Assembly: GCA_021555105.2 (NCBI GenBank)
Contig: CP134604.1
Coordinates: 124,001-188,000, forward strand
Source of the DNA: Thalassospiraceae bacterium LMO-JJ14
GTDB taxonomy: Bacteria > Pseudomonadota > Alphaproteobacteria > Rhodospirillales > Casp-alpha2
DNA length: 64,000 bases
Direction: 5' to 3'
The notes beneath the pieces were generated by a model that was given only the letters and a program-made list of their open reading frames with translations, was not told the DNA's origin and searched no databases. Shown piece after piece: positions 7,174 to 43,987 of the stretch. The position numbers and the translations under genes were made by a program. Numbering within the stretch: position 1 is the stretch's first letter; every line of letters starts with the position of its first letter.

Positions 7174-8355
7174 ATGGCCTCCGATCAGGACAACACATCG
7201 AAGGAAACCGCGTCACGGCACGTCGTGCATGCGACGCAGAACCCTTCCGCGGCCGATGTCTCGCGCTGGAGCGATCACTATTTCACGCGCACCAAGGAAA
7301 TCGTCGGGCGCTTCGGCGACCAGCGGGTGACCTATGCGGTGTTCATGCGCCGCCCGGTCATTTTCGCACCGAAGCTGATGCTGGACTGGCTGCAAAAAAT
7401 CGCCGACGAGCGTGGCGTCAGTTTCGACATCAAGCTGAATTACGACGAAGGCCACTGGGTCGGCGCCGGTGAACCGCTGCTCTATATCACCGGCTCGATG
7501 TATCATCTTGTCGATCTGGAAACCCTGTATCTGCAGAAACTGGGCGCGGCCTGCGTTGCCGCCAACAACGCCTTCACCATGTGCGTCGAGTTGCCGGAAG
7601 TGGCCTTTCTCGCCATGGACGCACGCCATTCGACAGGCATCGAGATGGCCGAGACCATGGCCTATGCCGCGTCCGTCGGGTCCAGGGCGGCGCGCGATCA
7701 GGTCGGCGCCAAGGGCTTTGTCGGCAACGCCACCGAAGCGACCGCGCATTATTTCGGCGAAACGCACGGCAAGGGCACCATGCCGCATGCCCTGATCGGC
7801 TATGCCGGCTCAACGCTCAAGGCCGCCGAAATGTTCGTCGACACCTTCCCCGATCAGCCGCTGACGGCACTGGTCGACTATTTCGGGCAGGAAATCACCG
7901 ACGCCCTGACCGTCTGCCGCCGCTTTCCGGCGATGGCGACGGAAGGCCGCATCGCGATCCGGCTCGACACCCACGGCGGCCGCTTTGTCGAGGGTCTGGA
8001 TCCGCAGGAATCCTACAGCGTGCTCGAACGTCATGCCCCGCAGGCGATCCGCCGCTATCGCAACGATGCGGAACTGCGCTACCTGACCGGCACCGGCGTC
8101 TCGGCGGCGGCGATCTTCCATCTGCGCGAACAACTCGACAAAGGCGGCTTCGATGCCGTGAAAATCGTCGTATCCAGCGGCTTCGACGTTGAGAAATGCA
8201 AGGTCATGGCCGATGCGAAAGCGCCGATCGACATGATCGGCACCGGTTCGTTCCTGCCGAACAAATGGACGGAAACCTATGCCACGGCGGATATCGTCGA
8301 TTACGGCGGGCGGCCGTCGGTCAAGGTCGGCCGGGAATTCCTGATCCGAAAATAA
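7174..8355 (+). CDS. pncB: Nicotinate phosphoribosyltransferase
   Basis: It converts nicotinate and PRPP to nicotinate mononucleotide, the entry step of NAD salvage. The 393-residue protein has the family N-terminus with the WSDHYFTRTKEIV segment, the central ALVDYFGQE region, the active-site stretch IRLDTHGGRF and the phosphate-binding C-terminal IGTGSF motif. A strong AAGGAGG precedes ATG 7174. The genes around it include nadE (9628), so salvage and the last step of NAD synthesis lie close together, separated by an opposite-strand gene. Confidence 0.92.
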   Translation: MASDQDNTSKETASRHVVHATQNPSAADVSRWSDHYFTRTKEIVGRFGDQRVTYAVFMRRPVIFAPKLMLDWLQKIADERGVSFDIKLNYDEGHWVGAGEPLLYITGSMYHLVDLETLYLQKLGAACVAANNAFTMCVELPEVAFLAMDARHSTGIEMAETMAYAASVGSRAARDQVGAKGFVGNATEATAHYFGETHGKGTMPHALIGYAGSTLKAAEMFVDTFPDQPLTALVDYFGQEITDALTVCRRFPAMATEGRIAIRLDTHGGRFVEGLDPQESYSVLERHAPQAIRRYRNDAELRYLTGTGVSAAAIFHLREQLDKGGFDAVKIVVSSGFDVEKCKVMADAKAPIDMIGTGSFLPNKWTETYATADIVDYGGRPSVKVGREFLIRK

Positions 8356-20569: not shown

Positions 20570-20732
20570 CAGATATAGGGTATCCTTGCAAGCCGGTGGT
20601 TGGCAGCGGTGAGACGTCTTTAGCAGCCCTGCCCGGGGCTGGCAACGGGGGCGGAAATTGCCGCCCGAAAGCACCCTCGCCGCAGTGGACAGAGACGCCC
20701 CGATACCCTATGTTCCCACCGCTCCACCGTGT

Positions 20733-20817
20733 GCGGGTGTGGCGGAATTGGTAGACGCGCCGGATTCAAAATCCGGTTTCTTCGGAAGTGTCGGTTCGAG
20801 TCCGACCACCCGCACCA
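20733..20817 (+). tRNA. tRNA-Leu (anticodon CAA)
   Basis: An 85-nt cloverleaf with encoded CCA. The acceptor GCGGGTG pairs with CACCCGC, the anticodon stem CCGGA/TCCGG encloses the loop TTCAAAA with anticodon CAA, a long variable arm follows, and the T-arm has GGTTCGAGTCC. The kinase gene begins only 21 bp downstream. Confidence 0.96.
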
Positions 20818-20838
20818 CCTCAACCAGGAGAATCCACT

Positions 20839-22173
20839 TTGGCATATGAAGTCGTTGAAAGGATCGGAAATGGAGGATTTGGCGTAGTCGATGAGGTAAA
20901 GGATGACGAAGGTGAATATTGGGCAAAAAAAACGTTAGACGTCGCCCTTCAGCCTCACATTGACCCGGACGAGCTTCGCGCAAGATTCGAGAGAGAAGTA
21001 AGATATCAAAGCGAAGTAGCACATCCAAATGTCGTGAAAATTCATGATTATGACTTAGATGCCGATCCGCCATGGTTCATAATGGAGCTTGCGGAAAACA
21101 GCTTAGCGGATGAGCTTGAAGATGATCACACACTTAGTGGCGATCCAAGACAACCATTGTTTGACATATTGGCAGGTTTACAGGCACTGCATGAGCGTGG
21201 GTTCAAACATCGCGACCTAACTCCCGCAAACGTGCTGAAATTTGTCGAAGAAGATGGTGGCATCAGATATGCAATCTCTGATTTTGGGCTTATTGCGCCT
21301 GAGGCTGGGCAAACGACCACGTTGACTGGCAGTAATATGGGAGGCGGCACCCCGATGTATCGCGCGCCGGAATGCGCGATAAACTTCAAGCGGGCAACCG
21401 CACAGTCAGACATATATTCTGTTGGAGCGATCCTGCATGACATATTTGGCGGGAAACAAACTCGCATACCCCACATTGAACTGACTGTTCCTGGCCCATT
21501 GGGAGAAATTGTACAACATTGTACAAAAACAAATCCACGCAGACGTTATTCAAACGTCGGGGCGTTGCGGGAACGTTTGTATGAAGTTCTCAGCGTTGAA
21601 GAGATTAGTTTTACCTCTGTTGAAGAAGAAGAAATCGTAACGTTGCTCAAAGGGTCCGATCATTTATCCGACGACGAATGGGATCGGGTTTTTAACCAAA
21701 TCGATGAAAACGATGCTGGAAATCAGTCGAACCACGCAATTTTTCGTGTATTGAGTATTACTCATATAGAGCAATTGGCTGACGAGGCACCTGAGTTATT
21801 AGCTTCTCTCGGAGACGATTATGCAAAATATGCACAACTTTCTGGGTTTGATTTCGATTATTGCGATGTGATTGGGACTAGAGCGCGTGCAATCTTCGAA
21901 AGGGCCGAACTCGACCTGCAGGCAAGGATAGCTGTCTCAATGTTTATGCTCGGCACCCGTCACAATAGATGGTTTGTTGAACGCATTTTCTTGCGTATGG
22001 CAGGAAAAGAGATATCTGACACGCTCGCCGAAAGAATAAAGATTGAGCTAGAAGTCCAAAATATCAATTTTTCAAGAGGAATAGAGCACTTAGAATGGTC
22101 TATCTCGGCTTCACGTGAGGATCTTCATTCTATTTTGCAAGACTTCTTAAATGATGCAGAAAATGGAAATTGA
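20839..22173 (+). CDS. Hanks-type Ser/Thr protein kinase
   Basis: A 444-residue soluble protein kinase. The N-terminal kinase domain (about 1-265) shows the Gly-rich loop (GNGGFG), the ATP-anchoring Lys in WAKKTLD, the catalytic loop HRDLTPANVL, DFG and the APE-like RAPE. In HRDLTPAN a Thr replaces the Lys that most Ser/Thr kinases keep, so activity is likely but unusual. Residues of about 270-444 form an unrecognised helical region; there is no transmembrane or PASTA domain. I choose TTG 20839 because AGGAG lies 8 nt upstream and the kinase fold begins right after it. Its end overlaps the PP2C gene by 23 bp, so the two act as a coupled kinase-phosphatase pair. Confidence 0.88.
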   Translation: MAYEVVERIGNGGFGVVDEVKDDEGEYWAKKTLDVALQPHIDPDELRARFEREVRYQSEVAHPNVVKIHDYDLDADPPWFIMELAENSLADELEDDHTLSGDPRQPLFDILAGLQALHERGFKHRDLTPANVLKFVEEDGGIRYAISDFGLIAPEAGQTTTLTGSNMGGGTPMYRAPECAINFKRATAQSDIYSVGAILHDIFGGKQTRIPHIELTVPGPLGEIVQHCTKTNPRRRYSNVGALRERLYEVLSVEEISFTSVEEEEIVTLLKGSDHLSDDEWDRVFNQIDENDAGNQSNHAIFRVLSITHIEQLADEAPELLASLGDDYAKYAQLSGFDFDYCDVIGTRARAIFERAELDLQARIAVSMFMLGTRHNRWFVERIFLRMAGKEISDTLAERIKIELEVQNINFSRGIEHLEWSISASREDLHSILQDFLNDAENGN

Positions 22174-22873
22174 TATTGGTCATTTTTCCTGCCCAGGAAG
22201 AAATGGGGGCAATCAAGATGTCGTATTACCGCCACTATTTGAGGGCGGATACGTTTGGGCGGCGATTGCGGACGGAGTCGGGGGCCATGTCGGCGGAGAA
22301 GTCGCTGCGCGAACCGCAATTGAGACCGTAAAACAAGAAGCCACCCAAGGCTCTAAGGCTAAATTAAAGTCTATAATTAACTCTGCTCATAAAGCGTTAG
22401 TGTCAAAAGCTGAGACTGCCGCCTCATTGACCGAAATGTCGACAACACTCTCCATTGTTCGCGCATCACGCAAGCAGGCAGAAGTTGCTCACATTGGTGA
22501 CTCTAGGATTTATCATCTCCGCGACAATGGCCTCATGACAAGGACTAAAGATCAAACAGAAGTAAATGAACTTATTGAAAACAGAGTTCTCACAAAAAAA
22601 GAAGCGCGAAGATACCCAAGACGTCATGTTCTTCTAAATTCACTATCGGTCAGAGAGCATTCCAACGTTTTTGAAACATCCTTTAGTGTGTGTCCTGGGG
22701 ATAGAATTATTTTGCTTACCGACGGGGTATATGAAGTCCTACTTCGATCCGAGATACGAGACCTATCGTTGAAAAGTGCAACATGTAACGAACTGTGCGC
22801 ACATATAAAGTCTGAAATAGAAGACCGTGGGATCGTTGATGATTATTCTGTTTGTGCATTTTCAATCAACTAA
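22151..22873 (+). CDS. PP2C-family (PPM) Ser/Thr protein phosphatase
   Basis: A 240-residue metal-dependent phosphatase. Motifs in order are GGNQD (metal Asp), ADGVGGHVGGE, VAHIGDSRIYHL, LLTDGVYE and the C-terminal DDYSV, all with the Asp ligands of the two-metal site. It lies inside the 3' end of the kinase gene (start candidates 22151, 22154 and 22163), which shows translational coupling. The natural role is to reverse phosphorylation by the partner kinase. In other bacteria such pairs occur in stress, secretion and phage-defence contexts; nothing here fixes which. Confidence 0.9.
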   Translation: MMQKMEIDIGHFSCPGRNGGNQDVVLPPLFEGGYVWAAIADGVGGHVGGEVAARTAIETVKQEATQGSKAKLKSIINSAHKALVSKAETAASLTEMSTTLSIVRASRKQAEVAHIGDSRIYHLRDNGLMTRTKDQTEVNELIENRVLTKKEARRYPRRHVLLNSLSVREHSNVFETSFSVCPGDRIILLTDGVYEVLLRSEIRDLSLKSATCNELCAHIKSEIEDRGIVDDYSVCAFSIN

Positions 22874-22935
22874 AGTTTTTTCTCCCCCGAGGCTTCTTTC
22901 AAAAAATTCATAGCCACCTCAAACGAGGACAATCC

Positions 22936-23907
22936 TTGAGCCAGAATCCACAGCACGCCGAACCGGAATACGCCGTCGAGATCGAAGGCCTGAGCAAGGT
23001 CTACGAAAGCTCCAACAAGCAGGCGCCGAAGCACGCCTTGAAGGACGTTTCGCTGAAGATTAAGCGCGGCTCGTTCTTCGGCCTTTTGGGGCCGAACGGG
23101 GCCGGTAAATCGACGCTGATCAACATTCTCGCGGGCCTCGTCAACCGCACGTCGGGTAGCGCGAAAATCTGGGGCCACGACATCGAAACCGACATGCGCG
23201 CGGCGCGCCGCTCGATCGGCGTGGTGCCGCAGGAGCTCAACATCGATCCGTTCTTCACGCCCAGGGAGCTGCTCGATCTGCAAGCCGGCCTCTATGGCGT
23301 GCCGGCGGCCGAGCGCCAGACCGACGACGTGCTTGCCGCCGTCGGTCTTTCCGACAAGGCCGACGCCTATACCCGTTCGCTGTCGGGCGGCATGCGGAGA
23401 CGGCTACTTGTCGGCAAGGCGATGGTGCACCGCCCACCGGTTTTGGTCCTCGACGAGCCGTCGGCGGGCGTCGATGTCGATCTGCGCCGCCAGCTCTGGA
23501 CCCATGTCCGCGAAATGAACGAGCAGGGAATCACCGTCCTTTTGACGACCCATTACCTGGAAGAGGCCGAGGCGATGTGCGACGAGATCGCCATCATCAA
23601 CCACGGCCGCATCATCGCCTGCGAGCCGACCGAGACCATGCTGCGCCGGATCGACGCCAAGCAGATGAAGGTCGTGCTCAGCAAGCCGCTGACCAGGATC
23701 CCCGATGCGCTCAAGCCCTACAACCCGACGCTGGGCGAGGCGGATTGCCTGTCGGTCAGCTTTGCGCCGTCGGAGACCCCGGCCCGCAAGGTTCTTCAGG
23801 ACATCGAGGACGCGGGGCTTGTTGTCCGGGATTTCTCGACCACGGATTCCGATCTCGAAGACATCTTCATCCGTCTGACGCACGGTGACGACGATGAAGG
23901 TTGTTGA
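22936..23907 (+). CDS. ABC transporter ATP-binding protein
   Basis: A 323-residue ABC-2-type export ATPase. Walker A is GPNGAGKST, the Q-loop is VPQELN, the signature is LSGGMRR, Walker B is VLVLDEPSAG and the switch His is in TTHYLEEAEAM. The C-terminal domain of about 100 residues is typical of the CcmA/drug-lipid exporter group. No permease gene is adjacent, so its membrane partner must be encoded elsewhere. The frame is open to 22852, but TTG 22936 with GAGGA 8 nt upstream is the likely start. The lipase gene overlaps its 3' end. Confidence 0.85.
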   Translation: MSQNPQHAEPEYAVEIEGLSKVYESSNKQAPKHALKDVSLKIKRGSFFGLLGPNGAGKSTLINILAGLVNRTSGSAKIWGHDIETDMRAARRSIGVVPQELNIDPFFTPRELLDLQAGLYGVPAAERQTDDVLAAVGLSDKADAYTRSLSGGMRRRLLVGKAMVHRPPVLVLDEPSAGVDVDLRRQLWTHVREMNEQGITVLLTTHYLEEAEAMCDEIAIINHGRIIACEPTETMLRRIDAKQMKVVLSKPLTRIPDALKPYNPTLGEADCLSVSFAPSETPARKVLQDIEDAGLVVRDFSTTDSDLEDIFIRLTHGDDDEGC

Positions 23908-30210: not shown

Positions 30211-30287
<77 letters not shown>

Positions 30288-30318
30288 TTTTCCATGTTAA
30301 ATCAATTAGTTGCAAAGT

Positions 30319-31374
30319 TTACTCTCCCAACGAAGTCTTGGGTGTGACCATAGTGTGTCCATAATCGTCCAATACACTTACCGCTCGCCGAAGGTGATCG
30401 GGCGCGAGGTGAGCGTATCGCTGGACCATATCGAGCGATTTGTGCCCCATTAAGTGCATGGCGTCATAGAGAGGGATGCCGTTCTGAACGAGGCGTGATG
30501 CATAGGTATGACGAAGGTCGTGAAAACGGACATCCGGCATACCAGCGTCGTTACGAGCGCGATTGAACGCGCTTTTAATATCCGACAGCCCCCTACCTCG
30601 ATACGTGAACACGCGCCCATGGTCTTGAGGATGAAGGCTCGCCAAAACAGCGAGCGCCGGGCGCGGCAAGGGTATATGTCGATCCTCCCCGTTCTTCGTT
30701 TCGCGGAACGTCACAAGCCCACGCTCCATATCAACATCTCGCCAATCGAGATTGAGTATTTCGCCCTTCCTTCCGCCCGTACTTAGCGCAAATCTGATGA
30801 TGGGAACCAAGTGGGCCGGTGAGCACATGACCAGCCGTTGCTCTTCTTCCTCACTGAGGAAGCGATCTCTCCGATGATCTTTCGGCAATCTGGGGAACCG
30901 AGGCTGAACCTCCAGAAGATCGTTTCGCCAAGCTTTGTTGAGTATCGCGCGAAGGATTGATACCTCGCGCCGTACAGTCGCCGGTGCAACGCGTTGCAAT
31001 CTTTCTTCCATATAGTTCGAGATCACTGAGGGCGTTATATCGCCAGCATTGTATGCCCCAAACCAAGCCGCCAAATCTCGCAAACGATACCGCGCGCTAC
31101 TCATGAATGTTTTAAGGTGGTCTCTTTTTTGCTCTTGCGCGTAGCGGTTTACCGCTTCAATGAAGGGCAAAGGTGGTTTTTTATCAAAGTTCTCGGAGAG
31201 AAATTTCTGACGCGTCAGGTCTGCTAAGAGGGCCTTCGCTTCTTCAAGGTCGGAAGTTCCAGTACTTCTGCGAATTCGCTCGCCTGTCTTCTTGACCCGA
31301 TAGTCAATGTAGAACTTTGACGAATTTGGCCGCTGGTAAAGGCCGTCCGGCAGACGTGACTGTTTTCTTGGCAT
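30319..31374 (-). CDS. Tyrosine recombinase / island integrase
   Basis: A 351-residue site-specific recombinase that catalyses integration and excision at the tRNA-Arg site. It has a SAM-like core-binding domain (about 65-150), and the catalytic residues are all visible: Arg in STGGRKGE, HxxR in HDLRHTYAS, His/Trp position in LMGHKS and the nucleophile Tyr in MVQRYAHLAP. The start has a strong GGGAAGG upstream. Its stop is only 32 bp from the tRNA end, the normal place for an integrase using this attachment site. The first 150 bp overlap the 3' end of the excisionase-like gene in another frame. Confidence 0.95.
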   Translation of the reverse strand: MPRKQSRLPDGLYQRPNSSKFYIDYRVKKTGERIRRSTGTSDLEEAKALLADLTRQKFLSENFDKKPPLPFIEAVNRYAQEQKRDHLKTFMSSARYRLRDLAAWFGAYNAGDITPSVISNYMEERLQRVAPATVRREVSILRAILNKAWRNDLLEVQPRFPRLPKDHRRDRFLSEEEEQRLVMCSPAHLVPIIRFALSTGGRKGEILNLDWRDVDMERGLVTFRETKNGEDRHIPLPRPALAVLASLHPQDHGRVFTYRGRGLSDIKSAFNRARNDAGMPDVRFHDLRHTYASRLVQNGIPLYDAMHLMGHKSLDMVQRYAHLAPDHLRRAVSVLDDYGHTMVTPKTSLGE

Positions 31375-31709
31375 TGCGCCTTCCCCTCTCGAAACTCCTT
31401 TGAAGAGACAAATTCATTGATGGTTTTGACATCCCAAACGTGCAGGCGGGTCGACAGCGGGCAAGATGGGATGCCGATGGCATTGAAGGTATCAATACCG
31501 ATGCCAAGATATGCTGCCGCCTCACTTCGCCTCAAAAAACGGCGTGTTGGGACCCCATTAGCTGAAGTTGGAGAAACTTCCGGGTTAGAACTCTCGCGAA
31601 GCTTCTCAGGGCCTGGCTCGCGTCGATAATTGTCCGCTGGCTTTTCACGGTGTCTGAAGCCAGCGGTAATTATTTTTGAACCCCGCCGATATCTGAGGCG
31701 AACGGTCAT
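31224..31709 (-). CDS. Excisionase-like HTH protein overlapping the integrase
   Basis: A 161-residue frame whose middle (about residues 57-105: RFLRRSEAAAYLGIGIDTFN, then VWDVKTINEFV) has the winged-helix pattern of AlpA/Xis-type DNA-binding proteins. The last 50 residues are encoded inside the integrase in another frame and look unconserved. The start overlaps the stop of the upstream regulator by 4 bp (ATGA). By position and fold it is likely the directionality factor of the island; an early frameshift that lengthened the frame cannot be ruled out. Confidence 0.6.
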   Translation of the reverse strand: MTVRLRYRRGSKIITAGFRHREKPADNYRREPGPEKLRESSNPEVSPTSANGVPTRRFLRRSEAAAYLGIGIDTFNAIGIPSCPLSTRLHVWDVKTINEFVSSKEFREGKAQCQENSHVCRTAFTSGQIRQSSTLTIGSRRQASEFAEVLELPTLKKRRPS

Positions 31710-32314
31710 TTGTCCAACCTTGCTTGGACCAATTCCTCCGCCTTTTCACGGCTCAACTCGACATTACCTAATTCAAGCCTTCGACCTTTCTTCTCCCGAA
31801 CCTGACATCGCTCATGCCACTCGGAGATCAACTTAATGGCTTCGTTGATTTGATTTTTTTCACCACCTCTGAACACAGCCCTGAACATGACAAAGATTGA
31901 GAAATCTAAATTCAGCGCAACGAGAAAATCTGGTGCGCGCCGTCTTGCGCGAGAGCCGATTTCTTCCCAAACGCCGACAGAATGAACTTCCGAAAAATCT
32001 GAATACAGGAACGGGGCGCTGCCTTGACGCCAAATCTTGAGAATTTGGTCAGGGAACTGCTCACCACCGATTAGTTCCAACAACATAGATTGCTCAGAGA
32101 ACGGGAAGCCCGAACGGCCTTTCAATTCTCTCAGCACAGCAAGGCGCATTACATCGATTGGCGAGAAGAGACGCCACTTCCCAGATTCACGGCTTTTGGG
32201 CTTTATCCCTGTGATCTCGCACCAGACATGGAGTTGCCTACCAGACAACTCAATCTCCGGGAAATGGCGCGGCTGAAGGGTCGCAAGCGCAAGCGGGGGC
32301 AAATTACTATCCAT
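31706..32314 (-). CDS. Putative island regulator (MerR-like helix-turn-helix)
   Basis: A 202-residue protein. Residues of about 18-60 (FPEIELSGRQLHVWCEITGI, then RLFSPIDVMRLAVLRELK) resemble a MerR-type winged HTH in which the ligand of DNA is set by a short basic helix; the rest is unrecognised. It overlaps the excisionase-like gene by 4 bp. Two similar inverted repeats lie just upstream of its start (32322-32372), as expected for an autoregulated gene. No good ribosome-binding site precedes ATG 32314, so translation may be leaderless or begin further in. Confidence 0.5.
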   Translation of the reverse strand: MDSNLPPLALATLQPRHFPEIELSGRQLHVWCEITGIKPKSRESGKWRLFSPIDVMRLAVLRELKGRSGFPFSEQSMLLELIGGEQFPDQILKIWRQGSAPFLYSDFSEVHSVGVWEEIGSRARRRAPDFLVALNLDFSIFVMFRAVFRGGEKNQINEAIKLISEWHERCQVREKKGRRLELGNVELSREKAEELVQARLDK

Positions 32315-32321
32315 AAAAAAA

Positions 32322-32372
32322 TGATACCAAGGTATTGATTTTTGTCAAGTGTTATTGATATGTAGGTATCAA
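32322..32372. promoter_or_regulatory. Pair of operator-like inverted repeats
   Basis: Two 17-bp sites, tgataccaaggtattga at 32322-32338 and tgatatgtaggtatcaa at 32356-32372, match at 12 positions and each is partly palindromic (TGATA...GGTAT). They are 34 bp apart, about three helical turns, between the divergent regulator and HNH genes. Confidence 0.5.
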
Positions 32373-32441
32373 TTATTGAGGCATTCGGATTTCAACCATT
32401 TGGCTTCCGAAAACCCGAACACAGAGTATGGAGCACTTGAT

Positions 32442-33314
32442 ATGAAGAAGTTTTCGTATTGGACCCACGGCGACGGTCATTACTATCGTGTACGCAAAAG
32501 GCCAGCCAGTTTTCAGTATCAACGTTGCAATCGCGCCACCTACCGCCATCGCCAGAGGCCTATACAGCCTCTCAAGATGCCATATTCAGGACCCTTTAAA
32601 AGCGGACCAGAACATCCCCGCTGGGTTAACCGAGACGCGCTCTTGATCGAGCTAAAATCCCGAATTTATGGGTCTTGGGTCGTAATCGGCACTGAGATAG
32701 TAACGGTAGGGCGTTCGCGAAAAGTACTTTGTCGGTGCTACAAAACGGGCCAAGAGCATTTAGTAAATGTCGACAATTTACTAGCCGGCAAAACTAAGGG
32801 GCCACGTGGCGTTAAACATCAGATATCAAAAAACTCAAAGGTTCTTGGGGAGAGATACGACGCAATGATGCAGCGGTGTAAGAACCCTCGCGACCGTAAC
32901 TATCCGAATTATGGCGGCCGGGGAATCGAGGTCCGTTTCGAGTCGCGCCCTGAATTCATCCTTTGGATGGAGGAGAATCTTCCTCATGAAAATTACAGAG
33001 GCGTTGAGATAGATCGCACCGACAACAATGGTCATTACGAGCCAGGAAATTTGAGACTCGTTACTCCACGAGAAAACCTCTGCAACACGCGACGAAATCG
33101 TCACGTTATTTATCGAGGGCAATCTGTCTTACAGACTCATTTTTGGCACGTGGTTAAACATGACATTCCCAATTTCAGTTACAGCAGAGAATGGACGACA
33201 AAGCTACTTGCAATGGATCTGTCGCCAGATGAAGTGATAAGACGTAGTCGAAATTGGCAGACAAAAGTAATTGAGTTTCCTTCCCCTGAGATTGTTAGAA
33301 TTTACAGGGAGTGA
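32442..33314 (+). CDS. HNH homing-type endonuclease
   Basis: A 290-residue protein with a Cys-poor HNH-like nuclease core typical of phage and intron endonucleases: RYDAMMQRCKNPRDRNYPNY, GGRGIEVRFES, then GVEIDRTDNNGHYEPGNLRL and the closing Asn/His region RENLCNTRR. The N-terminal part is basic and probably binds DNA. The frame is open from 32349, but ATG 32442 has GGAG 8 nt upstream. Its 3' end overlaps the antisense polymerase fragment by 20 bp, which suggests that the nuclease gene invaded a DNA polymerase gene. Confidence 0.8.
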   Translation: MKKFSYWTHGDGHYYRVRKRPASFQYQRCNRATYRHRQRPIQPLKMPYSGPFKSGPEHPRWVNRDALLIELKSRIYGSWVVIGTEIVTVGRSRKVLCRCYKTGQEHLVNVDNLLAGKTKGPRGVKHQISKNSKVLGERYDAMMQRCKNPRDRNYPNYGGRGIEVRFESRPEFILWMEENLPHENYRGVEIDRTDNNGHYEPGNLRLVTPRENLCNTRRNRHVIYRGQSVLQTHFWHVVKHDIPNFSYSREWTTKLLAMDLSPDEVIRRSRNWQTKVIEFPSPEIVRIYRE

Positions 33315-33858
33315 TGGCTTTGGCCCGGAACCTGAGCAGCTTCACAAAGTCCTTGAACGTGGCTGTTCGTCTGGCGTCTCCAGACAGGTTGCGGAGCCAC
33401 TGGCCGATCCCCTCGAAGCGGTTGGCCTCTTCTGGATGCTCAAGAACAATGCGCTCGTCGTTCTTGTAGGATGCCAGTTGTTCTTCGGTCATACCAATGG
33501 TCGCTGCTGCCGTCGCAATGTGGATGTCACCACCGCGTCGGTAGATGTCGATCATCGTGGTTTCGTTGGCCATCCATGCAGCGATACGAAGCTCTGCCTG
33601 AGACAAGTCGGCCCCGACCATGACGAACCCGGGCGACGGAATGAATGAGGACTGGTATTGTTTCGCCCATCTGTTCCGCTTAGGGAAGTTTTGGCCGTTG
33701 GGGTCCATGCTGGCCGTACGGCCGGTGACGGCTACGTGCAGCATGTAGGACGGGTGGATGTAGCCGTTTCGGTCCGTGTAGTTGTCGTAGAAGCCCCGCA
33801 GATAAACTATCGTTCGTCCACTCAAACTCGTATTGGTCGTTTGAAACCTTGCGTACAA
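33295..33858 (-). pseudogene. Fragment of a phage-type family A DNA polymerase
   Basis: About 187 codons that match the centre of Pol I-type polymerases: VAVTGRTASMDPNGQNFPK, then motif A VGADLSQAELRIAAWMAN with the metal-binding Asp, and DIHIATAAATIGM. The reading frame ends at RFRAKAI followed by unrelated residues, exactly where motif B (RxxAKxxNFG) should continue, and no remaining 3' part is found. Upstream, the matching reading continues in another frame (33680-33883 holds KVSNDQYEFEWTND), so the fragment is also frameshifted. It is dead as a polymerase and marks a phage origin for this part of the island. Confidence 0.75.
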
Positions 33859-34163
33859 AAGCTTGCTTGTTCTTCCTAAGCAACCGACTAGGATATAGTC
33901 TAAGATTTTCTATCTTTTGGCGAAAGCGTGGGTGCTTGGTTTTTTAATTCTCAAATACAAACTGATGGGAAAGACGCCTCATATATTTGGGACTCTCTTA
34001 AAAGAAAGTGAAATAATCAATATTAATTTTCAATTTAAAGATGTTGGATGCTTTATTAGATTGTTCGAGACTGGTGTACTAATTTTCTGGGCATTTTTTA
34101 AATCTAATTCTAATGCTCAGCAGACACCTTAGTGACGTCACTTAAAAGAATCAGAGGGATAGA
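33859..34163. other. A+T-rich gap before the chaperone operon
   Basis: About 300 bp with no supported gene; a 71-codon open frame here has low-complexity composition and no ribosome-binding site. The right end carries the palindrome at 34131-34142 and must hold the promoter of the operon. Confidence 0.55.
34131..34142. promoter_or_regulatory. Perfect 12-bp palindrome, candidate operator of the chaperone operon
   Basis: AGTGACGTCACT is a perfect palindrome ending 21 bp upstream of the first start codon of the operon, in an A+T-rich surrounding. Its position fits a repressor or activator site; no cognate protein is identified. Confidence 0.45.
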
Positions 34164-34829
34164 ATGGGGCTTTTTGGGAAAATTTTTGGGGGTGACAAGA
34201 AGCCTTCCTCTGACCTCCCGCCAGAGGTCAGAAAGATATTCGACAAGATGGCGCGGGTTATGGAGGACGAAAAACTTCAAAACTCGATGTATCCAGACCA
34301 GATAAAAAGTCAGATTGAAAATGGTCAAGATACCGATGAAATTTCATATGCCGTTGGCGAATTCGGCCGTACTGAAGACAATCCTATCCCAGTTAATGGT
34401 CCCATCGGGGAGCTGGTTTATCTTTCTTGCCTAAAAACAAAAAGTAACGCGCGGTTACTATTCCATCGACTCGGTTCAATGGACGGGATCGATTTTTATG
34501 AGACCGTGACCATCGACGGCCGAGACTGGGATGTCCTTTTCTTTTCTATGTATCATCCACGCAAATCCAAAAAGGCTCCATCTGGCTACGTTTTAACGAG
34601 CACAAATGAGCAACCATTGCTGTTTGGGACAAACCGGCGTGTCGAAAATTTTCCGTACAGTCTGCAACAAGCCATCCGAAGTACTACATCAGAGATATTT
34701 GGTTTTCCATTGCCGCCGCCCCAGGTTCGACAAGCCGAAGAAAGCGTGAAATTTCAGAGGCCCAAGGACCACCTTCAGCGAGTTAAAAGCCTCGTCGCCC
34801 AGTCCCAAGGTTACAGGAGAGACTCATGA
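34164..34829 (+). CDS. First gene of the Hsp70 operon, unknown function
   Basis: A 221-residue soluble protein I cannot name. After a basic Gly-rich start (MGLFGKIFGGDKK) and a charged helix, residues of about 60-140 form a compact alpha/beta domain with conserved-looking motifs NPIPVNGPIGELVYL, LLFHRLGS, YETVTIDGRDWDVLFF and MYHPRKSKKAPSGY. No catalytic motif is recognised. It overlaps the GrpE-like gene by 4 bp (ATGA). Its constant place beside the chaperone genes here suggests a client-recognition or effector part; this is inference. Confidence 0.65.
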   Translation: MGLFGKIFGGDKKPSSDLPPEVRKIFDKMARVMEDEKLQNSMYPDQIKSQIENGQDTDEISYAVGEFGRTEDNPIPVNGPIGELVYLSCLKTKSNARLLFHRLGSMDGIDFYETVTIDGRDWDVLFFSMYHPRKSKKAPSGYVLTSTNEQPLLFGTNRRVENFPYSLQQAIRSTTSEIFGFPLPPPQVRQAEESVKFQRPKDHLQRVKSLVAQSQGYRRDS

Positions 34830-35206
34830 GCGAAGAGCCATCCAATGAGCCGACGACGGAAGCGTTAACGCAGTCACTGTTGGACATATCGGTAGAGTCT
34901 TGGCGATTTGGTAAGTTGTTTGATCGTCTTCTGGGAAAACTAGATGCTGGAGAACAGAGCCGGTACCGAGGCCAATTCAGATGGTTCCAAAAGAAAGTAG
35001 AAGAGTCACTGGTCTCGGCGCAGCTTCGAGTGGTCAATGTTGAGGGACAACAATACGACACCGGCATGGCAGCGACTCCCTTGAATATTGACGAGTTTGA
35101 CCCGAATGACATCCTCGTTGTCGATCAAATGCTCGAACCCATCCTTATGGGACCAAATGGGATTATTAAGACTGGAACCGTTACGCTCAGGAAGAAGCAG
35201 CTATGA
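34826..35206 (+). CDS. GrpE-like nucleotide-exchange protein (short)
   Basis: A 126-residue protein, shorter than normal GrpE (about 190). A helical N-terminal half (QSLLDISVESWRFGKLFDRL, RYRGQFRWFQKKVEESL) is followed by a C-terminal part (EGQQYDTGMAATPLNIDEFD, VDQMLEPILMGPNGIIKTGT) that recalls the beta-domain of GrpE, which opens the Hsp70 nucleotide cleft. The similarity is weak by eye. The ATGA overlaps on both sides (with the upstream gene and with the Hsp70 gene) show strict translational coupling to Hsp70, which supports this role. Confidence 0.55.
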   Translation: MSEEPSNEPTTEALTQSLLDISVESWRFGKLFDRLLGKLDAGEQSRYRGQFRWFQKKVEESLVSAQLRVVNVEGQQYDTGMAATPLNIDEFDPNDILVVDQMLEPILMGPNGIIKTGTVTLRKKQL

Positions 35207-37698
35207 GTCATTTCGTTGGTATTGACCTCGGCACAACAAACAGCGCCATTTCATCGTTTGACGGTGAAGAAGTTCGAATTTGGAAGAGTCCCGAGCAAAA
35301 CGATGTAACTCCCTCGGTGATCTACATTGATCGAAGGGGTAATAAGTACGTTGGAAAGCGAGCCTACGACTCTGCGCCAAACAGTCCTGACAACGCCGCC
35401 AGTCTTTTTAAACGGCTTATGGGAACTAGCACTCCCATTCAACTATCAGCAGTGAACGAGACAAAAACGCCTGAAGAATGCTCAGCAGAAGTTTTGAGAG
35501 TGCTTTTTGGATACCTACCCGAAGAAATCCGCAATTCCGATGAAACCGGAACCGTTATCACAGTGCCTGCGGCGTTCAACCAAATGCAAAAGGATGCAAC
35601 GATGCAGGCTGCCGAATTGGCCGGCATCGGCAAGGTTGCACTCATGCAGGAGCCGGTTGCCGCAGTTATGAGCGTCATGCGCGGACGAAAAACGGACGGC
35701 ATTTTTCTAATCTACGATCTTGGCGGTGGCACTCTAGACATAGCAATTGCAGAAAGTTTGGGTGGGCGAGTAAATCTACTCGCGCACGGCGGCATTGCAA
35801 TGTGTGGCGGTCGTGACTGGGATCGCACACTCGTCGATAACATTATTAAGCCATGGCTTTTCGAGAACTTTGATTTACCAGAGGATCTCGCAAGCAATGC
35901 CGATTACAAAGCCCTAATGCGTTTGGCCGCTTGGTCTACAGAACGAGCAAAAATTGAACTTTCTGCCCGAGAAGATGCGGTAATTAGCCTTTCCGAAACA
36001 GAAGCGCGGGTTCGCGATAAATCAGGTGCTGAGGTTTACCTCGATATTCCAATTGATCGAGATACGCTGGACCGCCTGATTGAAGAACGCATCAACGACA
36101 CAATTGAGTCTGCACGTGACACTTTGACGAAGGCCGGATTGACGGCAAGCGATGTCGAGCGCGTTGTCTTCGTGGGGGGACCAACAAATTATAAACCGCT
36201 GCGCGACAAGGTCTCTTTCGAATTAGGGATTCCTGGCAGTTCGGAAGTCAATCCAATGACAGCCGTATCTGAAGGTGCGGCATTATTTGCGGAATCAATT
36301 GACTGGAGTTCCCAAAGCCGTGGAAGGAAAAGCAACCGAGGCAAATTGTCTTCGAGCGGCCAACTCGACGTAAGCTTTAACTACATTGCACGAACGCCTG
36401 ACTCACGGGCGAAGATTGCAACTCAAGTGAATGGAGAAGTGCTTGAAGGTGCTGAGTTTCAGATTGATAGCTTGGATACAGGTTGGACCTCGGGTCGTCT
36501 ACCCTTGACGAATGGCGCGACTATCGATGTGACACTTGGCAAGAATGGCGACAACGCTTTTAAGGTGTTTGTATTTGATGCCTCTGGTGGTCCGCTCTCC
36601 CTTGAGCAAGATAAGATCGTCATTACGCGAACGGCAGCCACAGTCGATGCAATTCCGGCTTCATATTCGATAGGAATAGAAGTCTTGGACAAACTCGGCG
36701 GACGGCCAACGCTAGAATGGTTGGTAAGGGCGGGCGACCAACTCCCTAAAAAGGGAAATCGTGTTTTTAAGACAAGCGAGTCCATTAAGGCAGGAAGCTC
36801 AAGCGCTATTAACTTCAAACTTTGGGAAGGCGAAATTGACGACCCGGTAACGGATAATCGCTTTGTCGGAATGCTCAGGGTTTCAGGCTCTGACTTTGAC
36901 GATGGTGTCATACCTGCAGGCGCTGATCTGAACTGTGATTATGAAGTCTTAGACTCTGGCAACATCGTCTTAGAAGTATCCGTCCCTAGCATTGGCGGAA
37001 CTTTTCATTCAGGCCACAACTTCTATTCTCGAGTTGATGGCCAACTCGACTACTCAAATGTGGCGGCAAGGGTGGCGGAAGACTCAAGCCATACAATGGG
37101 CCGCCTTGATGAAATTAGCGATGTAGTTGACGACCCTAAATTAGAACAAGCACGAAAAAAATTGTCTCGTGCGTCTGACGTCGATCTAGAACAGCCCGAC
37201 ACAGAGCAGGCTCAAGAAGCGATGGAGAGCGTTCTTGAAGCGAAAAAATTGCTCGCTCAGGTTCGCAAGGATCACCTTAAGGAAATTCGACAGCTCGACC
37301 TCGACCAAGTGAAAAGCTTCTTTGACAATCATATCCGGGAGCATGCCCGCCCCAGCGAAGAAACTGCTTTCGACAACCTTGTTCGCACGGCGCAGCGTGA
37401 GATTGACAGAAACGGTAGAGGCTTTGAGAGCCACCTTGACGAATTGCAGACCAAAAATTTTGAAATTCTATGGCGGCAAGATTGGTTTGTTGTGGAGAAA
37501 TTCAAGCACATGGTTCAATCGCCATTCAATTTCTCAGACAAGCAAAGATTTGAAGAGTTGGCATCTCAAGGTCTGGAGCACCTCCGATCAGACGATATAG
37601 ATGCGCTCCGTCAAGTGGTCGCCTTAATGGGAATGATGCAGATTGGTTCCACGTCCGAGACGGATATGTTGGATATCGTCAATATTGTTAGGGGCTAA
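35203..37698 (+). CDS. Hsp70-family chaperone with extra domains
   Basis: An 831-residue Hsp70, larger than DnaK (about 640). The N-terminal nucleotide-binding domain (about 1-370) has the phosphate loops GIDLGTTNSA and YDLGGGTLDIA (about 172-182), VPAAFN, and the adenosine motif VFVGGPTNYKPLRD (about 322). Between it and a recognisable substrate-binding beta domain (about 485-600, with KLGGRPTLEWLVRAG and LRVSG) lies an extra stretch of about 100 residues, rich in beta strands. The C-terminal 220 residues are a charged helical extension, well beyond the normal lid. It is coupled to the GrpE-like gene and followed after 3 bp by the AAA+ gene. ATP-driven client binding is expected; the client is unknown. 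Confidence 0.88.
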   Translation: MSHFVGIDLGTTNSAISSFDGEEVRIWKSPEQNDVTPSVIYIDRRGNKYVGKRAYDSAPNSPDNAASLFKRLMGTSTPIQLSAVNETKTPEECSAEVLRVLFGYLPEEIRNSDETGTVITVPAAFNQMQKDATMQAAELAGIGKVALMQEPVAAVMSVMRGRKTDGIFLIYDLGGGTLDIAIAESLGGRVNLLAHGGIAMCGGRDWDRTLVDNIIKPWLFENFDLPEDLASNADYKALMRLAAWSTERAKIELSAREDAVISLSETEARVRDKSGAEVYLDIPIDRDTLDRLIEERINDTIESARDTLTKAGLTASDVERVVFVGGPTNYKPLRDKVSFELGIPGSSEVNPMTAVSEGAALFAESIDWSSQSRGRKSNRGKLSSSGQLDVSFNYIARTPDSRAKIATQVNGEVLEGAEFQIDSLDTGWTSGRLPLTNGATIDVTLGKNGDNAFKVFVFDASGGPLSLEQDKIVITRTAATVDAIPASYSIGIEVLDKLGGRPTLEWLVRAGDQLPKKGNRVFKTSESIKAGSSSAINFKLWEGEIDDPVTDNRFVGMLRVSGSDFDDGVIPAGADLNCDYEVLDSGNIVLEVSVPSIGGTFHSGHNFYSRVDGQLDYSNVAARVAEDSSHTMGRLDEISDVVDDPKLEQARKKLSRASDVDLEQPDTEQAQEAMESVLEAKKLLAQVRKDHLKEIRQLDLDQVKSFFDNHIREHARPSEETAFDNLVRTAQREIDRNGRGFESHLDELQTKNFEILWRQDWFVVEKFKHMVQSPFNFSDKQRFEELASQGLEHLRSDDIDALRQVVALMGMMQIGSTSETDMLDIVNIVRG

Positions 37699-37701
37699 TC
37701 A

Positions 37702-39168
37702 ATGCCGGGCGACAGATGGCTTCCAATAAATTACGAAACCTCTGAGGGTATAGTATTCCGTAAGCTCGTCAGCTTTGGCGATCATTGGCAAATATATGAT
37801 TCAGGACGCGGCGCCCGCGTTCTCGTCTGCGAAAAAATGATAGGCGAACGATGGATTTCAGAGGGCTTCCTGGATGAATCAGCGCTAACCAGCTTTTCCT
37901 TTGGGCAGAATAATTTTTTCGCAATCGAGTCGGGCCAGAATCAGCAACTGGCGGCTGTGACTGAGTTCATAACTCCCGAGACTAAAGCAGATGCCGCCGC
38001 CTTTGCCGTCAGCTTGCGTCACACTCGTCAAATTGATCATGAAGTCTCATTGCATGACGCAATATTCGTCGAACGCTTTTCCCGGTTACTTCCAACCTGG
38101 ACAGTTTCAGAAAAGATTAGTGATGATCACGTTCTGGGACGTTGGCTAACAGGTGGCGTATCAGTATCAACTTCCTCGTTTCGCCGGATTTCCAATCTTC
38201 TTGGATGGCTGAAAAAAGACGAAGTTCTAGATGTTATTGCATTGGGCGGCCTCCCTTTGCCGGATGGTGGTGTTCGCACCGAGGGCAACACTAGATCGAA
38301 AGAAGCGCAACAAAATAAGGACGCTGAAACCAGAAAATCTAAAACAGACAGTGCAACGATTCTGAAAGAACCTTCTAGCAATAGTCCATCGGAGTTCAAG
38401 CTCAGTGGCCGACCATTCCTTGAAGATTTTTTCAACGAACATGTCGTAGATATCATTCTCCACGAGGACCGTTATCGAGCTCTAGGCGTGGACTTTCCCT
38501 CGGCAGTCGTTTTGCATGGTCCGCCAGGGTGCGGAAAAACATTCGCTGTTGATCGTCTCGTCGAATATTTGGATTGGCCTGTTTATCATGTGGACTCTAA
38601 CAGTGTAGGCAGCCCTTATATTCACGAGACCAGTCGCAAAGTTGCAGAAATCTTTGAAACAGCGATAGAGAACGCTCCAGCGGTCATAGTTATTGACGAG
38701 ATGGAATCTTTTCTGTCTGACCGCCAATTACATCAGTCCACTGGCTTGCATCACGTTGAGGAAGTAGCGGAATTCCTGCGCCGAATTCCAGAGGCCATTT
38801 CTCGCCGAGTATTAATCATCGGCATGACGAATAGACTGGAAATGATTGATCCCGCGATTCTCCGAAGAGGACGTTTCGATCATGTAATTGAAGTCGGCAT
38901 GCCTACCAGATCTGAAGTTGCCGATTTGGTCTCTTCCTTGCTCGAAAAAATGCCTGTCGCAGGGGAAGTTTCTGTCGAGAAGGCAATCTCAGCACTTACC
39001 GGGCGCCCCCTATCAGACGTTGCATTCTCAATTCGTGAGGCTGGGCGCTTAGCTGCAAGATCGGGTAAGGACAAGTTGAGCCAAGACGCCTTAGACCAGG
39101 CGATTGCCAGACTTCCGAATGTCTCTGACGAAGAGAAAAGCCGCCCCATAGGGTTTATCTGGGATTGA
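37702..39168 (+). CDS. AAA+ ATPase of the Hsp70 operon
   Basis: A 488-residue protein. The N-terminal region of about 190 residues has no recognised fold, then a low-complexity linker (about 190-235), then a single AAA+ domain with Walker A GPPGCGKT (about 273), Walker B VIVIDEME (about 328), sensor 1 GMTNR and the Arg finger region RRGRFD. This places it near the classical AAA clade (Cdc48/FtsH/SpoVK), without a protease domain. Such enzymes remodel or unfold proteins as hexamers. Its direct coupling to Hsp70 suggests a disaggregase-like pair similar in idea to DnaK-ClpB, but built on a different ATPase. Confidence 0.85.
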   Translation: MPGDRWLPINYETSEGIVFRKLVSFGDHWQIYDSGRGARVLVCEKMIGERWISEGFLDESALTSFSFGQNNFFAIESGQNQQLAAVTEFITPETKADAAAFAVSLRHTRQIDHEVSLHDAIFVERFSRLLPTWTVSEKISDDHVLGRWLTGGVSVSTSSFRRISNLLGWLKKDEVLDVIALGGLPLPDGGVRTEGNTRSKEAQQNKDAETRKSKTDSATILKEPSSNSPSEFKLSGRPFLEDFFNEHVVDIILHEDRYRALGVDFPSAVVLHGPPGCGKTFAVDRLVEYLDWPVYHVDSNSVGSPYIHETSRKVAEIFETAIENAPAVIVIDEMESFLSDRQLHQSTGLHHVEEVAEFLRRIPEAISRRVLIIGMTNRLEMIDPAILRRGRFDHVIEVGMPTRSEVADLVSSLLEKMPVAGEVSVEKAISALTGRPLSDVAFSIREAGRLAARSGKDKLSQDALDQAIARLPNVSDEEKSRPIGFIWD

Positions 39169-39169
39169 T

Positions 39170-40822
39170 ATGGAACTTTTTGAAAATCCATTTTGGCTAC
39201 TCGGCGCATCATCGCGAGATGATCGGCGGAAGATAATGGAGCTAGCAGAGGAAAAAAGCTTACTCGCAGATGATGACTCGATTTCAAATGCAAGCGGCGC
39301 TCTGACAAATCCACGCAAAAGATTGGAAGTTGAGACAGCCTGGCTTCCTGGACTAGCTCCGAAACGAGCGAGCGAAGTTATCGATCAACTAAAAACCAAT
39401 CCAAGGGATATCTTGGAACAGAAGAATGTTCCAGGCTTAGCGAGGGCAAACCTTTTAGCCACTGGCCTAAAGCACGTGACTGGGAATCTGAATGAAGCAG
39501 AACTATGTGAATGGATTATCGAAATCGCCGACGTTTTCGACGACGTTGATACCGAAGAAATAATTACCATCATCAACGAGGACAGGGGCATAGCTGGTTT
39601 TCCAATTGTTTCCGATCACCATGCGCTGGAACTCGAAATTGATAACCGTAGGCAGTTTATTCGTTCCTCTATTAGAGCGGCACTCAACGAACTTCCGCCA
39701 ATGAGTCTGGTGAAAGTGATCACAGACGCAGTGGAGAAAACTACCGATGTCGGTGAACGACCTGCACCTCTTCTAATTGATGAAATCGTCGACATGTACG
39801 AGGTTGAGGCGCAAGATTTTCTTGATAAGGAAGAAGCCAATATCGATGCGCTCTTGGAGCGTATCCGCGATATTGCAGATAAGAAAAAGTCGGACAAAAT
39901 CCTCTCGCCGATAATCGATGAACTGATTTCTGTTGTCCAAAATTGGGATGTTGTTGCCCAGCCAATTCAAGTCAGCACAAAAAGCCGAGGGTTAGGACAC
40001 GAAGCAAGTGCTCGCGTCGCTCACAATGTTCGGGACTTAGCCGTATATCTGTTTAACGAGCACGACAAATTAGAGATTTCTCAGAAGATTGCGGCAATGC
40101 TTCGTGAAGTTTTTGCAGAAGTCGTATCCGTTGCAGACAAGACTGACGAGGATATAGGTGCGCTCGACGATATCGCCGAGCAAAGAAAGCTAAGTGGGCA
40201 CCTAGAACCGATAACAGAGCTTTGCTCACAAGCGTTAGAGAGGATTGAATCCCACCCATCATCTGCACATGGCGAGGCCCAAAAAATCACGAGGGTCGCG
40301 CAACGTCTTATAGCCGGGCTGGAGTCAGCAAAGTTACCGCAGAACCTAGTCGAACAAGGCAAAGATGAAATTGCGTTGACTTTGATGCAGTGCGCGATCG
40401 CATACGCAAACGAAACGAGCAAATGGAACGAATGTGTCGAAATGCTCGAAGACGCTATGAAATATGCCTCTAGCGCTGAGGCGCGAAAACATATTCGAGG
40501 GAACTTGCTGACTGCCAACCAAAACAAGGCAATGTATGGAAATTTATCTCCGATCTCTTCTGCTCCGACTCTATGGACGCTAAATGGTTTCGGATTCACT
40601 CTATACGGCAGCACAGATGTTGACCCTGTTAGCCGGTCACATATCGCTACATATTATTTCACCGCCCTGTTCATTCCAATTTTTCCAATATCTCGTTACC
40701 GGGTAATACAGGATGGGAATAACTACAGATTCCTCGGCAAAGCGCCACTTAGGCAATTTGACAAGATTCACTTATTAATTTCGGTGGTTGCAATCGTAGC
40801 TGTCTTTATTGGCGCACAATGA
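39170..40822 (+). CDS. J-domain-like, membrane-anchored protein
   Basis: A 550-residue protein with an N-terminal stretch (NPFWLLGASSRDDRRKIMEL, then SNASGALTNPRKRLEVE) that resembles a degenerate J domain: the helix pattern is present but the HPD tripeptide that stimulates Hsp70 is absent. A long helical middle follows. Near the C-terminus is a distinct domain (GFGFTLYGSTD, YYFTALFIPIFPISRYRV, YRFLGKAPLR), then a final transmembrane helix (HLLISVVAIVAVFIGA), so it would sit on the inner membrane facing the cytoplasm. It starts 1 bp after the AAA+ stop. It is the likely adaptor that recruits the chaperone to the membrane. Confidence 0.65.
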   Translation: MELFENPFWLLGASSRDDRRKIMELAEEKSLLADDDSISNASGALTNPRKRLEVETAWLPGLAPKRASEVIDQLKTNPRDILEQKNVPGLARANLLATGLKHVTGNLNEAELCEWIIEIADVFDDVDTEEIITIINEDRGIAGFPIVSDHHALELEIDNRRQFIRSSIRAALNELPPMSLVKVITDAVEKTTDVGERPAPLLIDEIVDMYEVEAQDFLDKEEANIDALLERIRDIADKKKSDKILSPIIDELISVVQNWDVVAQPIQVSTKSRGLGHEASARVAHNVRDLAVYLFNEHDKLEISQKIAAMLREVFAEVVSVADKTDEDIGALDDIAEQRKLSGHLEPITELCSQALERIESHPSSAHGEAQKITRVAQRLIAGLESAKLPQNLVEQGKDEIALTLMQCAIAYANETSKWNECVEMLEDAMKYASSAEARKHIRGNLLTANQNKAMYGNLSPISSAPTLWTLNGFGFTLYGSTDVDPVSRSHIATYYFTALFIPIFPISRYRVIQDGNNYRFLGKAPLRQFDKIHLLISVVAIVAVFIGAQ

Positions 40823-40857
40823 GATGTGTGGATTCTAAGGATAGGACTAGGATTTGA

Positions 40858-42933: not shown

Positions 42934-43126
42934 CGGAAACTCACCAAGCTAACGTTTCTTTTTTCTCCGTATTCCTCTCATCGCCATTTTTGAAACTCCT
43001 TCGCCCTCTGAATGGTGATGCTCAATCCGAGACATAACCAATCTGCAAAGTTTCCTTGTGTCGACCGAACCTGCGTATCGGCTAATGCCCTCGAGATATT
43101 CTCAACCATACCCCGATCAATTTTTG

Positions 43127-43858: not shown

Positions 43859-43987
43859 GATGTTTTGCCCCCGCTACTCATTAGATTAATAATAACATTT
43901 ATATTTACCAATGATAGATTGCATTCTGTCGTTCGAAACACAGTTTCTGGCGTCAGATTATTCACCGAAGTTGCTGCAGGACTCGTT

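Follow-up and report, generated by a model that had tools for sequence, protein, structure and literature searches.

The locus analyzed here lies in a 64,000-nt stretch (the window) of contig CP134604.1 of Thalassospiraceae bacterium LMO-JJ14. At positions 20733 to 23907 of the window, the gene for tRNA-Leu(CAA) is followed by genes for a Ser/Thr kinase, a PP2C phosphatase, and an ABC ATPase, all on the plus strand (Table 1). The G+C content is 0.43 to 0.49 across the two-gene insert formed by the kinase and PP2C genes, compared with a background of approximately 0.61. The coordinates and this drop in G+C bore out a first-pass annotation of the window, which had described an A+T-rich kinase-phosphatase pair 21 bp past the tRNA and had proposed its insertion there: 21 nt separate the tRNA-Leu end from the kinase start codon. 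This TTG codon lies where several homologs read M-A-Y or M-T-Y. The PP2C start, at either of two ATG codons, overlaps the kinase stop codon; a short overlap is common in the family, and PP2C is probably a translationally coupled second gene. The insert of 2.1 kb contains no genes other than this pair. The list of open reading frames (ORFs) and an integrase motif scan revealed no tyrosine integrase within 20818-22935, and no transposase-like ORF was seen in the insert, which has one sizeable antisense ORF without a Pfam match.

Table 1. Features of the tRNA-Leu locus and of a second island in the window
Feature	Position	Strand	Basis or remark
tRNA-Leu(CAA), intact, insertion target	20733-20817	+	ARAGORN; same tRNA-Leu(CAA) at the equivalent place in seven congeners
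Left direct-repeat copy, CCACCTC-AACCAGGAGAATCC, starting in the tRNA CCA	20815-20835	+	Holds the Shine-Dalgarno-like AGGAG of the kinase gene
Eukaryote-like Ser/Thr kinase, TTG start, 444 aa	20839-22173	+	Pfam PF00069, E=3e-30
PP2C phosphatase, ATG start	22163 or 22151 to 22873	+	Pfam PF13672, E=1e-13; alignment of five
Right direct-repeat copy, CCACCTCAAACGAGGACAATCC, native leader of the ABC gene	22914-22935	+	Like the leaders of congeners G002 and G005
ABC-transporter ATPase gene, TTG start, native tRNA-Leu neighbor	22936-23907	+	Pfam PF00005; orthologue 75-87% identical after tRNA-Leu in seven congeners
Second island: tRNA-Arg(CCG)	30211-30287
Second island: XerC/D-like tyrosine integrase	30319-31374	-
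Second island cargo: Hsp70	35203-37698
Second island cargo: IetA-like AAA ATPase	37702-39168
Second island: perfect 45-bp repeat of the tRNA-Arg 3' end, closing boundary	at 44846

The equivalent region was compared in seven congeners from the relatives search and in one further family member (G010), whose contig is without the tRNA. All seven congeners show the order DsbB, DedA-like gene, tRNA-Leu(CAA), and ABC gene without the kinase-PP2C pair, and an alpha/beta hydrolase gene follows the ABC gene in the six whose contig extends that far. Four congeners have a short gap between the tRNA and the ABC gene, of 19 bp (G002, G005), 20 bp (G001), or 48 bp (G007). In the others it measures approximately 0.2 kb (G006), 0.9 kb (G003), and 1.5 kb (G004). 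Conservation of the pair at this place in all relatives had been named beforehand as the outcome that speaks against an insertion; its absence from 7/7 congeners is the opposite result and gives the empty site that had been predicted, with the ABC gene next to the tRNA. Therefore, the pair is an insertion in this species, into an interval that itself varies. A search for other cargo at the same tRNA in relatives had also been proposed, and G003 carries a methyltransferase-like ORF there (L170 1656-2541) and G004 a thioredoxin-like ORF (L176 8747-10270). The tRNA-Leu/ABC site may be a hotspot for small cargo.

The insert is flanked by a direct repeat. Both copies of the previously noted 9-mer CCACCTCAA are present, at 20815-20823 and 22914-22922 (spacing, 2099), but the 9-mer alone is at chance level, with nine other exact 9-nt pairs within the same 2.5 kb. 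If one gap is allowed, 20815-20835 and 22914-22935 align with 19 of 22 columns identical (score 15). Elsewhere in the 64-kb window, the right copy excepted, matches to the left copy reached at most 12 on the plus strand and at most 11 on the minus strand. The repeat is thus longer than first described. Since it extends over 22 columns, the similar AGGA...TTG start regions that had been remarked upon after both 9-mers are part of one repeat. The kinase TTG begins four bases beyond the end of the left copy, and the ABC TTG directly abuts the right copy.

The leaders of G002 and G005 matched the right copy with a score of 17 and the left copy, from CCA on, with a score of 10 (P=0.002 against random window sites). 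By the same measure, the match of the G001 leader to the left copy was weak (P=0.10), and the G007 leader gave none (P=0.65). Judged from these alignments, the right copy is the native leader and the left copy arrived with the insert. The leader matches in G002 and G005 show that the duplication is real and place the Shine-Dalgarno-like AGGAG of the kinase gene in the left copy, which agrees with the ready-made translation start suggested for the kinase. As in islands at tRNA and tmRNA genes (tDNA islands), a direct repeat of the target end, here 22 columns from the tRNA CCA, flanks the insert. A T-arm scan detected no displaced tRNA fragment (T-arm or anticodon arm) in the right copy, where only CCA is present. 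We found no inverted repeats pairing the two insert ends, and the insert lacks the combination of terminal inverted repeats and transposase that defines a DNA transposon.

A full-length match to the kinase was obtained only in its own genome among 61 genomes (own plus 60 relatives). Its C-terminal domain was detected in 4/385 genomes of the class, including its own (the weakest, G437, was missed by the alignment model), and in 1/398 genomes of the phylum, again its own. Full-length kinases with 31-35% identity, each followed by PP2C, are encoded on three small Acinetobacter plasmids with BrnTA genes, and a protein-only scan of genome contigs retrieved no relatives. An alignment search with the C-terminal domain yielded 33 loci from named genomes and another 6 from virus contigs. 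Together with the window, G197, G155, the three plasmids, and an Escherichia coli prophage, and minus one duplicate, these make up the 45 loci of the family. L069, a second copy on the L068 contig, was dropped, and L101 and L104, with nearly the same kinase (zero branch lengths), were both counted.

The PP2C gene lies directly behind the kinase gene on the same strand in 40/45 loci (in G155 across a contig break). It is convergent in L080, and none is shown in L083 (a remnant), L092 (near a contig edge), L095, and L096. The two-gene unit is present in the window and in the annotated loci L056-L058 and L104. Furthermore, kinase identities track those of PP2C (r=0.87 over the 30 of 35 loci that could be used), with none of 2000 permutations reaching a value as high. 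In the kinase tree, the smallest starred set with the window comprises 14 of 35 rows, the nearest being L100, L070, and the tmRNA loci L064 and L065. In G155, the kinase gene is split between two contig ends (L061 end, L062 start) near the HNRW motif, which may reflect an insertion or an assembly repeat. At the DNA level, E. coli genomes gave no match to the Pseudescherichia pair and a match in 1/5426 to the L102 pair. Among phage records, 28 matched, none spanning 80% of the kinase.

Members of the family are associated with the 3' ends of tRNA and tmRNA genes (t(m)RNA genes). ARAGORN detected a t(m)RNA gene at most 1.5 kb from the pair in 12/45 loci, and in all 12 its 3' end points toward the pair. 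These are tRNA-Leu in the window, tRNA-Thr in L060, L075, and L084, tRNA-Met in L072, tRNA-Phe in L073, tRNA-Val in L083, tRNA-Lys in L087, tRNA-Arg in L090, tRNA-Pro in L098, and tmRNA in L064 and L065. None of the control kinases outside the family has such a neighbor (0/19 from relatives and 0/21 from the same genomes; 12/45 versus 0/40, Fisher p=0.00026, or p=0.00024 with 44 loci, L101 and L104 being taken as one). The kinase remnant L083 is among the 12. L091, which has only a tRNA 3' fragment, 18 nt upstream of its open frame, was excluded; with it, the count is 13/45. Two further loci, L079 and G155, have a tRNA 4.2 kb and 2.1 kb off, respectively, and stand outside the 12.

Relatives of two of these loci were also compared. 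In the Microvirga relatives of L087 (15 loci, one of them its own), tRNA-Lys is kept and no clean empty site was definable; the sequence after it varies between species, except for a 57-bp match in L118. By eye, we read a tRNA 3' half immediately ahead of the L087 kinase. Among the Sphingomonadaceae relatives of L090, the kinase was present in 0/14 other loci within the stretch compared, and tRNA-Arg(TCT) stands beside a YhhQ-like gene in 12/14. In L060 (G197), at approximately 8230-8300 between PP2C and tRNA-Thr, we saw by eye a degraded piece that we take to resemble the 3' half of an initiator tRNA, perhaps an older attachment site (att) remnant.

Several related pairs are enclosed by repeats derived from their t(m)RNA gene. 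In Bosea (L084), the tRNA-Thr 3' end recurs in degraded form at a distance of 2334 bp, and the repeats enclose just the kinase and PP2C genes. In Cognaticolwellia (L064/L125), PP2C is followed by a second copy of approximately 140 bp of the tmRNA 3' end with its terminator, and the two copies enclose 3.0 kb in which the kinase and PP2C are the only sizeable ORFs. A 22-bp tRNA-Val repeat in Brevundimonas (L083) surrounds a truncated ORF, the kinase remnant, and a resolvase gene. In Pelomonas (L072/L127), a 50-bp tRNA-Met repeat surrounds 10.3 kb with the pair adjoining the tRNA, an Eco57I-like methylase, and, beside the far repeat, a P4-type integrase (PF13356 and PF00589). Integrases of this type are also encoded between tmRNA and PP2C in a Campylobacteraceae metagenome-assembled genome (L065; PF13356 and PF00589) and, split over two ORFs, behind PP2C in Vibrio (L066). 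In L079 (5221-11905), a gene with FHA and trypsin domains, a second PP2C, and a second, different kinase adjoin the family pair, and a tyrosine integrase at tRNA-Thr lies approximately 3 kb before it. In Curvibacter and Acidovorax (L067 3308-6564, L074 3364-6567), the pair comes immediately after the gene of a class I (E/Q) tRNA synthetase, and the final ~40 bases of this gene are identical in the two loci; this gene end is a possible att site in a protein-coding gene.

Given the repeats and integrases of the related loci, we read the window copy as an island whose integrase was lost or was never there. The target duplication claimed in the first-pass annotation is real, but an att-type duplication at a tDNA is more likely than a transposon target duplication, because terminal inverted repeats are missing and relatives carry P4-type integrases. 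An element with a kinase-PP2C operon would have recombined at the 3' end of tRNA-Leu(CAA), probably by means of a tyrosine (P4-type) integrase since lost or supplied in trans, and so become a minimal genomic island. The outcome would be an att-like duplication of approximately 22 bp, in which the right-hand copy is the native leader and the left-hand copy the version brought by the element.

Alternatively, a donor segment comprising a tRNA-Leu end, leader, kinase, and PP2C could have entered by homologous or illegitimate recombination via short homology, which is not site specific. Most of the repeat is situated beyond the tRNA and it is like the leaders of two congeners, the Cognaticolwellia repeat of approximately 140 bp would be long enough for RecA, and the inserts of G003 and G004 occupy the same place with no att repeat noticed by eye. 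However, the 22 diverged bases at hand are, we take it, short for RecA, and site-specific integration is favored both by the family's preference for t(m)RNA 3' ends and by the P4-type integrases that relatives encode. We therefore regard recombination by short homology as unlikely.

The window also holds a second island (30211-44890), located 6.3 kb beyond the ABC gene, with a G+C content of 0.42-0.50 over most of its length (Table 1). The earlier statement that no recombinase is present holds for the insert, but not for this separate island at the next tRNA gene, tRNA-Arg(CCG), which encodes a tyrosine integrase. The enzyme shares 35% identity with the integrase of L079, where a family pair is also present, and it was considered as a helper for the tRNA-Leu insert; this reading was set aside, as there is no sign of its acting on tRNA-Leu.

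The kinase domain spans approximately residues 1-250 and contains K31, HRD (124-126), and DFG (148-150). It is followed by a helical C-terminal domain (approximately 255-444) with the motif HNRW[YF]VE at 375-381. In an alignment of 31 kinases, made after removal of fragments, of rows lacking the motif, and of the plasmid and E. coli rows, K31, HRD, DFG, F339, C342, D343, G372, H375-W378, V380, E381, and I422 are invariant. Similarly, the aspartates D37, D113, D187, and D226 are invariant in five aligned PP2C proteins. The exact motif HN[RK][WF].VE occurs in 40/44 rows tested (one row a duplicate) and is missing from L074, L092, L095, and L096; this conservation is partly due to selection, because the loci were partly found through a pattern built from the motif.

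The AlphaFold2 model has a pLDDT of 90.1 for the whole kinase and 95.9 for the C-terminal domain. A fold search with the full-length kinase was dominated by kinase domains. For the C-terminal domain, considered as a candidate ARM/HEAT helical repeat, no specific fold relative was found in the PDB or among viral models: the best Foldseek match had E=0.18, and the best VIA-align Z values were 9.4 to a designed repeat (rmsd 5.4, 152 aligned) and 8.9 to importin-alpha (rmsd 4.5, 178 aligned), both in the range of common helical arrangements. In the predicted structure, the HNRW[YF]VE surface may have a docking or sensing role. At E<=0.001, the Pfam matches of all 31 kinases were confined to kinase models, with ABC1 in addition for one of them.

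A generic promoter and terminator scan, in which counts were near chance, detected a promoter-like site at 20686-20714, just upstream of tRNA-Leu, and no terminator-like site between tRNA-Leu and the kinase. By eye, a hairpin followed by a T-run is present after the tRNA or tmRNA in L064, L072, L073, and L098. The suggestion that the kinase borrows the tRNA promoter is therefore plausible in the window but not general. In three congeners, the native ABC gene begins only 19-20 bp past the tRNA; its transcription by read-through from the tRNA promoter is therefore likely the native arrangement, taken over by the insert.

Regarding genomic context, the pair of E. coli KV7 (L104) belongs to a P2-type prophage, where it is flanked by replication genes and by the portal gene, and in the virus contigs L101 and L102 a portal gene lies right behind the pair. 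This prophage position is described as a defense hotspot in the available parts of PMC9122126 and PMC9519451. Of ten neighboring proteins compared with PADLOC models, eight matched below 1e-10; the defense neighbors comprise type I restriction-modification (L068, L071), methylases (L072, L098), Hachiman HamB (L082), and pAgo (L089).

We consider it probable that the insert is an integrase-less tDNA island carrying a bipartite phage-defense module, in which the kinase would be the toxin and the phosphatase the antidote, with a logic like that of the kinase-kinase-phosphatase module KKP. The kinase would be translated from the left leader and transcription would probably result from read-through from the tRNA promoter, while PP2C would keep phosphate off the kinase or off its targets. 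A phage component, either sensed by the C-terminal domain of the kinase or blocking PP2C, would tip the balance, and hyperphosphorylation would arrest the infected cell.

Several points weigh against this explanation. An integrase-made crossover is not proven, because the window copy is without an integrase and the right repeat retains only the tRNA CCA. In 33/45 family loci, there is no t(m)RNA gene within 1.5 kb, and the comparison with controls set family loci of approximately 2 kb against control matches of approximately 0.6 kb before flanks, several of which end at contig ends. The ten defense neighbors were picked by eye, without a control. As far as the matches show, no listed PADLOC system equals this pair, and no phage-resistance, toxicity, or phosphorylation data for the two-gene form were found in the literature.

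The pair could instead be an ordinary regulatory kinase-phosphatase couple, involved in stress or secretion control, that is mobile by chance and has no part in defense. The best NCBIfam matches are indeed the housekeeping models NF033483 (Stk1/PknB; 114.6 of 450 bits for the kinase) and NF033484 (Stp1; 145.5 of 230 bits for PP2C), but these scores are far below the curated cut-offs. Since the distribution is also sporadic and the contexts include the P2 defense hotspot, restriction-modification, Hachiman, and pAgo genes, and small plasmids, we consider a purely regulatory couple quite unlikely. A DNA transposon or composite event that left a plain 9-bp target-site duplication at CCACCTCAA and whose transposase is gone would account for the exact direct repeat at both flanks, but it is very improbable in view of the ends without inverted repeats, the insert without a transposase-like ORF, the similarity running past 9 bp, and the relatives located at the 3' ends of t(m)RNA genes of several isotypes, in some cases with repeats derived from these genes.

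Returning to the tDNA island with a defense module, a bolder extension, which we regard as doubtful, concerns the family as a whole. The HNRW[YF]VE kinase-PP2C pairs would be a distinct bipartite phage-defense system, and one of its routes of spread would be a two-gene cassette bounded by att repeats that ranks with the smallest tDNA islands. Having no recombinase, this cassette would be integrated in trans by the integrases of other elements and switched on at once via the leader, and sometimes the tRNA promoter, of its target. If this were true, there would be a simpler, two-part kinase-phosphatase immunity across several bacterial phyla, on chromosomes, plasmids, and prophages. The family would bring an uncharacterized sensor-like domain, with an E. 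coli representative at hand in a P2-type prophage. Moreover, integrase-free tDNA islands of 2-3 kb would be a class of defense cargo of very small size, overlooked by surveys that demand an integrase.

Among known systems, the window kinase matched several PADLOC kinase models, best mad6 and PD-T4-6, and PP2C matched the candidate model PDC-M21C (1e-10). Stk2, PD-T4-6, and the MADS kinase mad6 have related kinase domains, and the matches lie mainly there; in contrast to them, the window kinase comes with a PP2C dedicated to it and with a C-terminal domain of its own. The TerY-P triad, which consists of a VWA protein, a PP2C, and an STK, also combines a kinase and a PP2C in a defense context, but no VWA gene lies within the window insert, where the pair stands alone. 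Like the tDNA islands of Islander, as presented in the available part of PMC4383910, the insert leaves the t(m)RNA gene intact, has a direct repeat of the target end at its far side, and faces the tRNA 3' end. Unlike them, it is without the integrase gene that Islander requires, and its repeat contains only the last 3 nt of the tRNA.

The closest comparison is with KKP, the PfkA-PfkB-PfpC module of Pf6 and other prophages. According to the accessible portion of PMC11341870, on which the whole comparison with KKP draws, the toxicity of its kinase is restrained by the PP2C phosphatase, and a phage protein that inhibits the phosphatase frees the kinase, resulting in phage defense. Other than KKP, no kinase-PP2C pair in phage defense was named in the titles and abstract beginnings of the matches listed, which is a weak negative, or in the available part of PMC13092281. 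Both KKP and the present family encode a Ser/Thr kinase together with a PP2C (PF13672) on mobile DNA, both occur in P2-type prophages, and both have restriction-modification and toxin-antitoxin neighbors; the kinase-toxin/phosphatase-antitoxin model is borrowed from KKP. However, KKP has two kinases and one phosphatase, whereas the family has one kinase, with the kinase gene first and the phosphatase gene second. Furthermore, PfkA is fused to a cold-shock domain (PF00313) and PfkB to an FHA domain (PF00498), and each domain was matched in 0/31 family kinases, which instead have the helical C-terminal domain, mostly with HNRW[YF]VE; the family is also sometimes found at t(m)RNA genes. Because of the single kinase, the reverse gene order, and the 31 kinases without cold-shock or FHA domain, the family is not KKP, but by analogy it may work like it.

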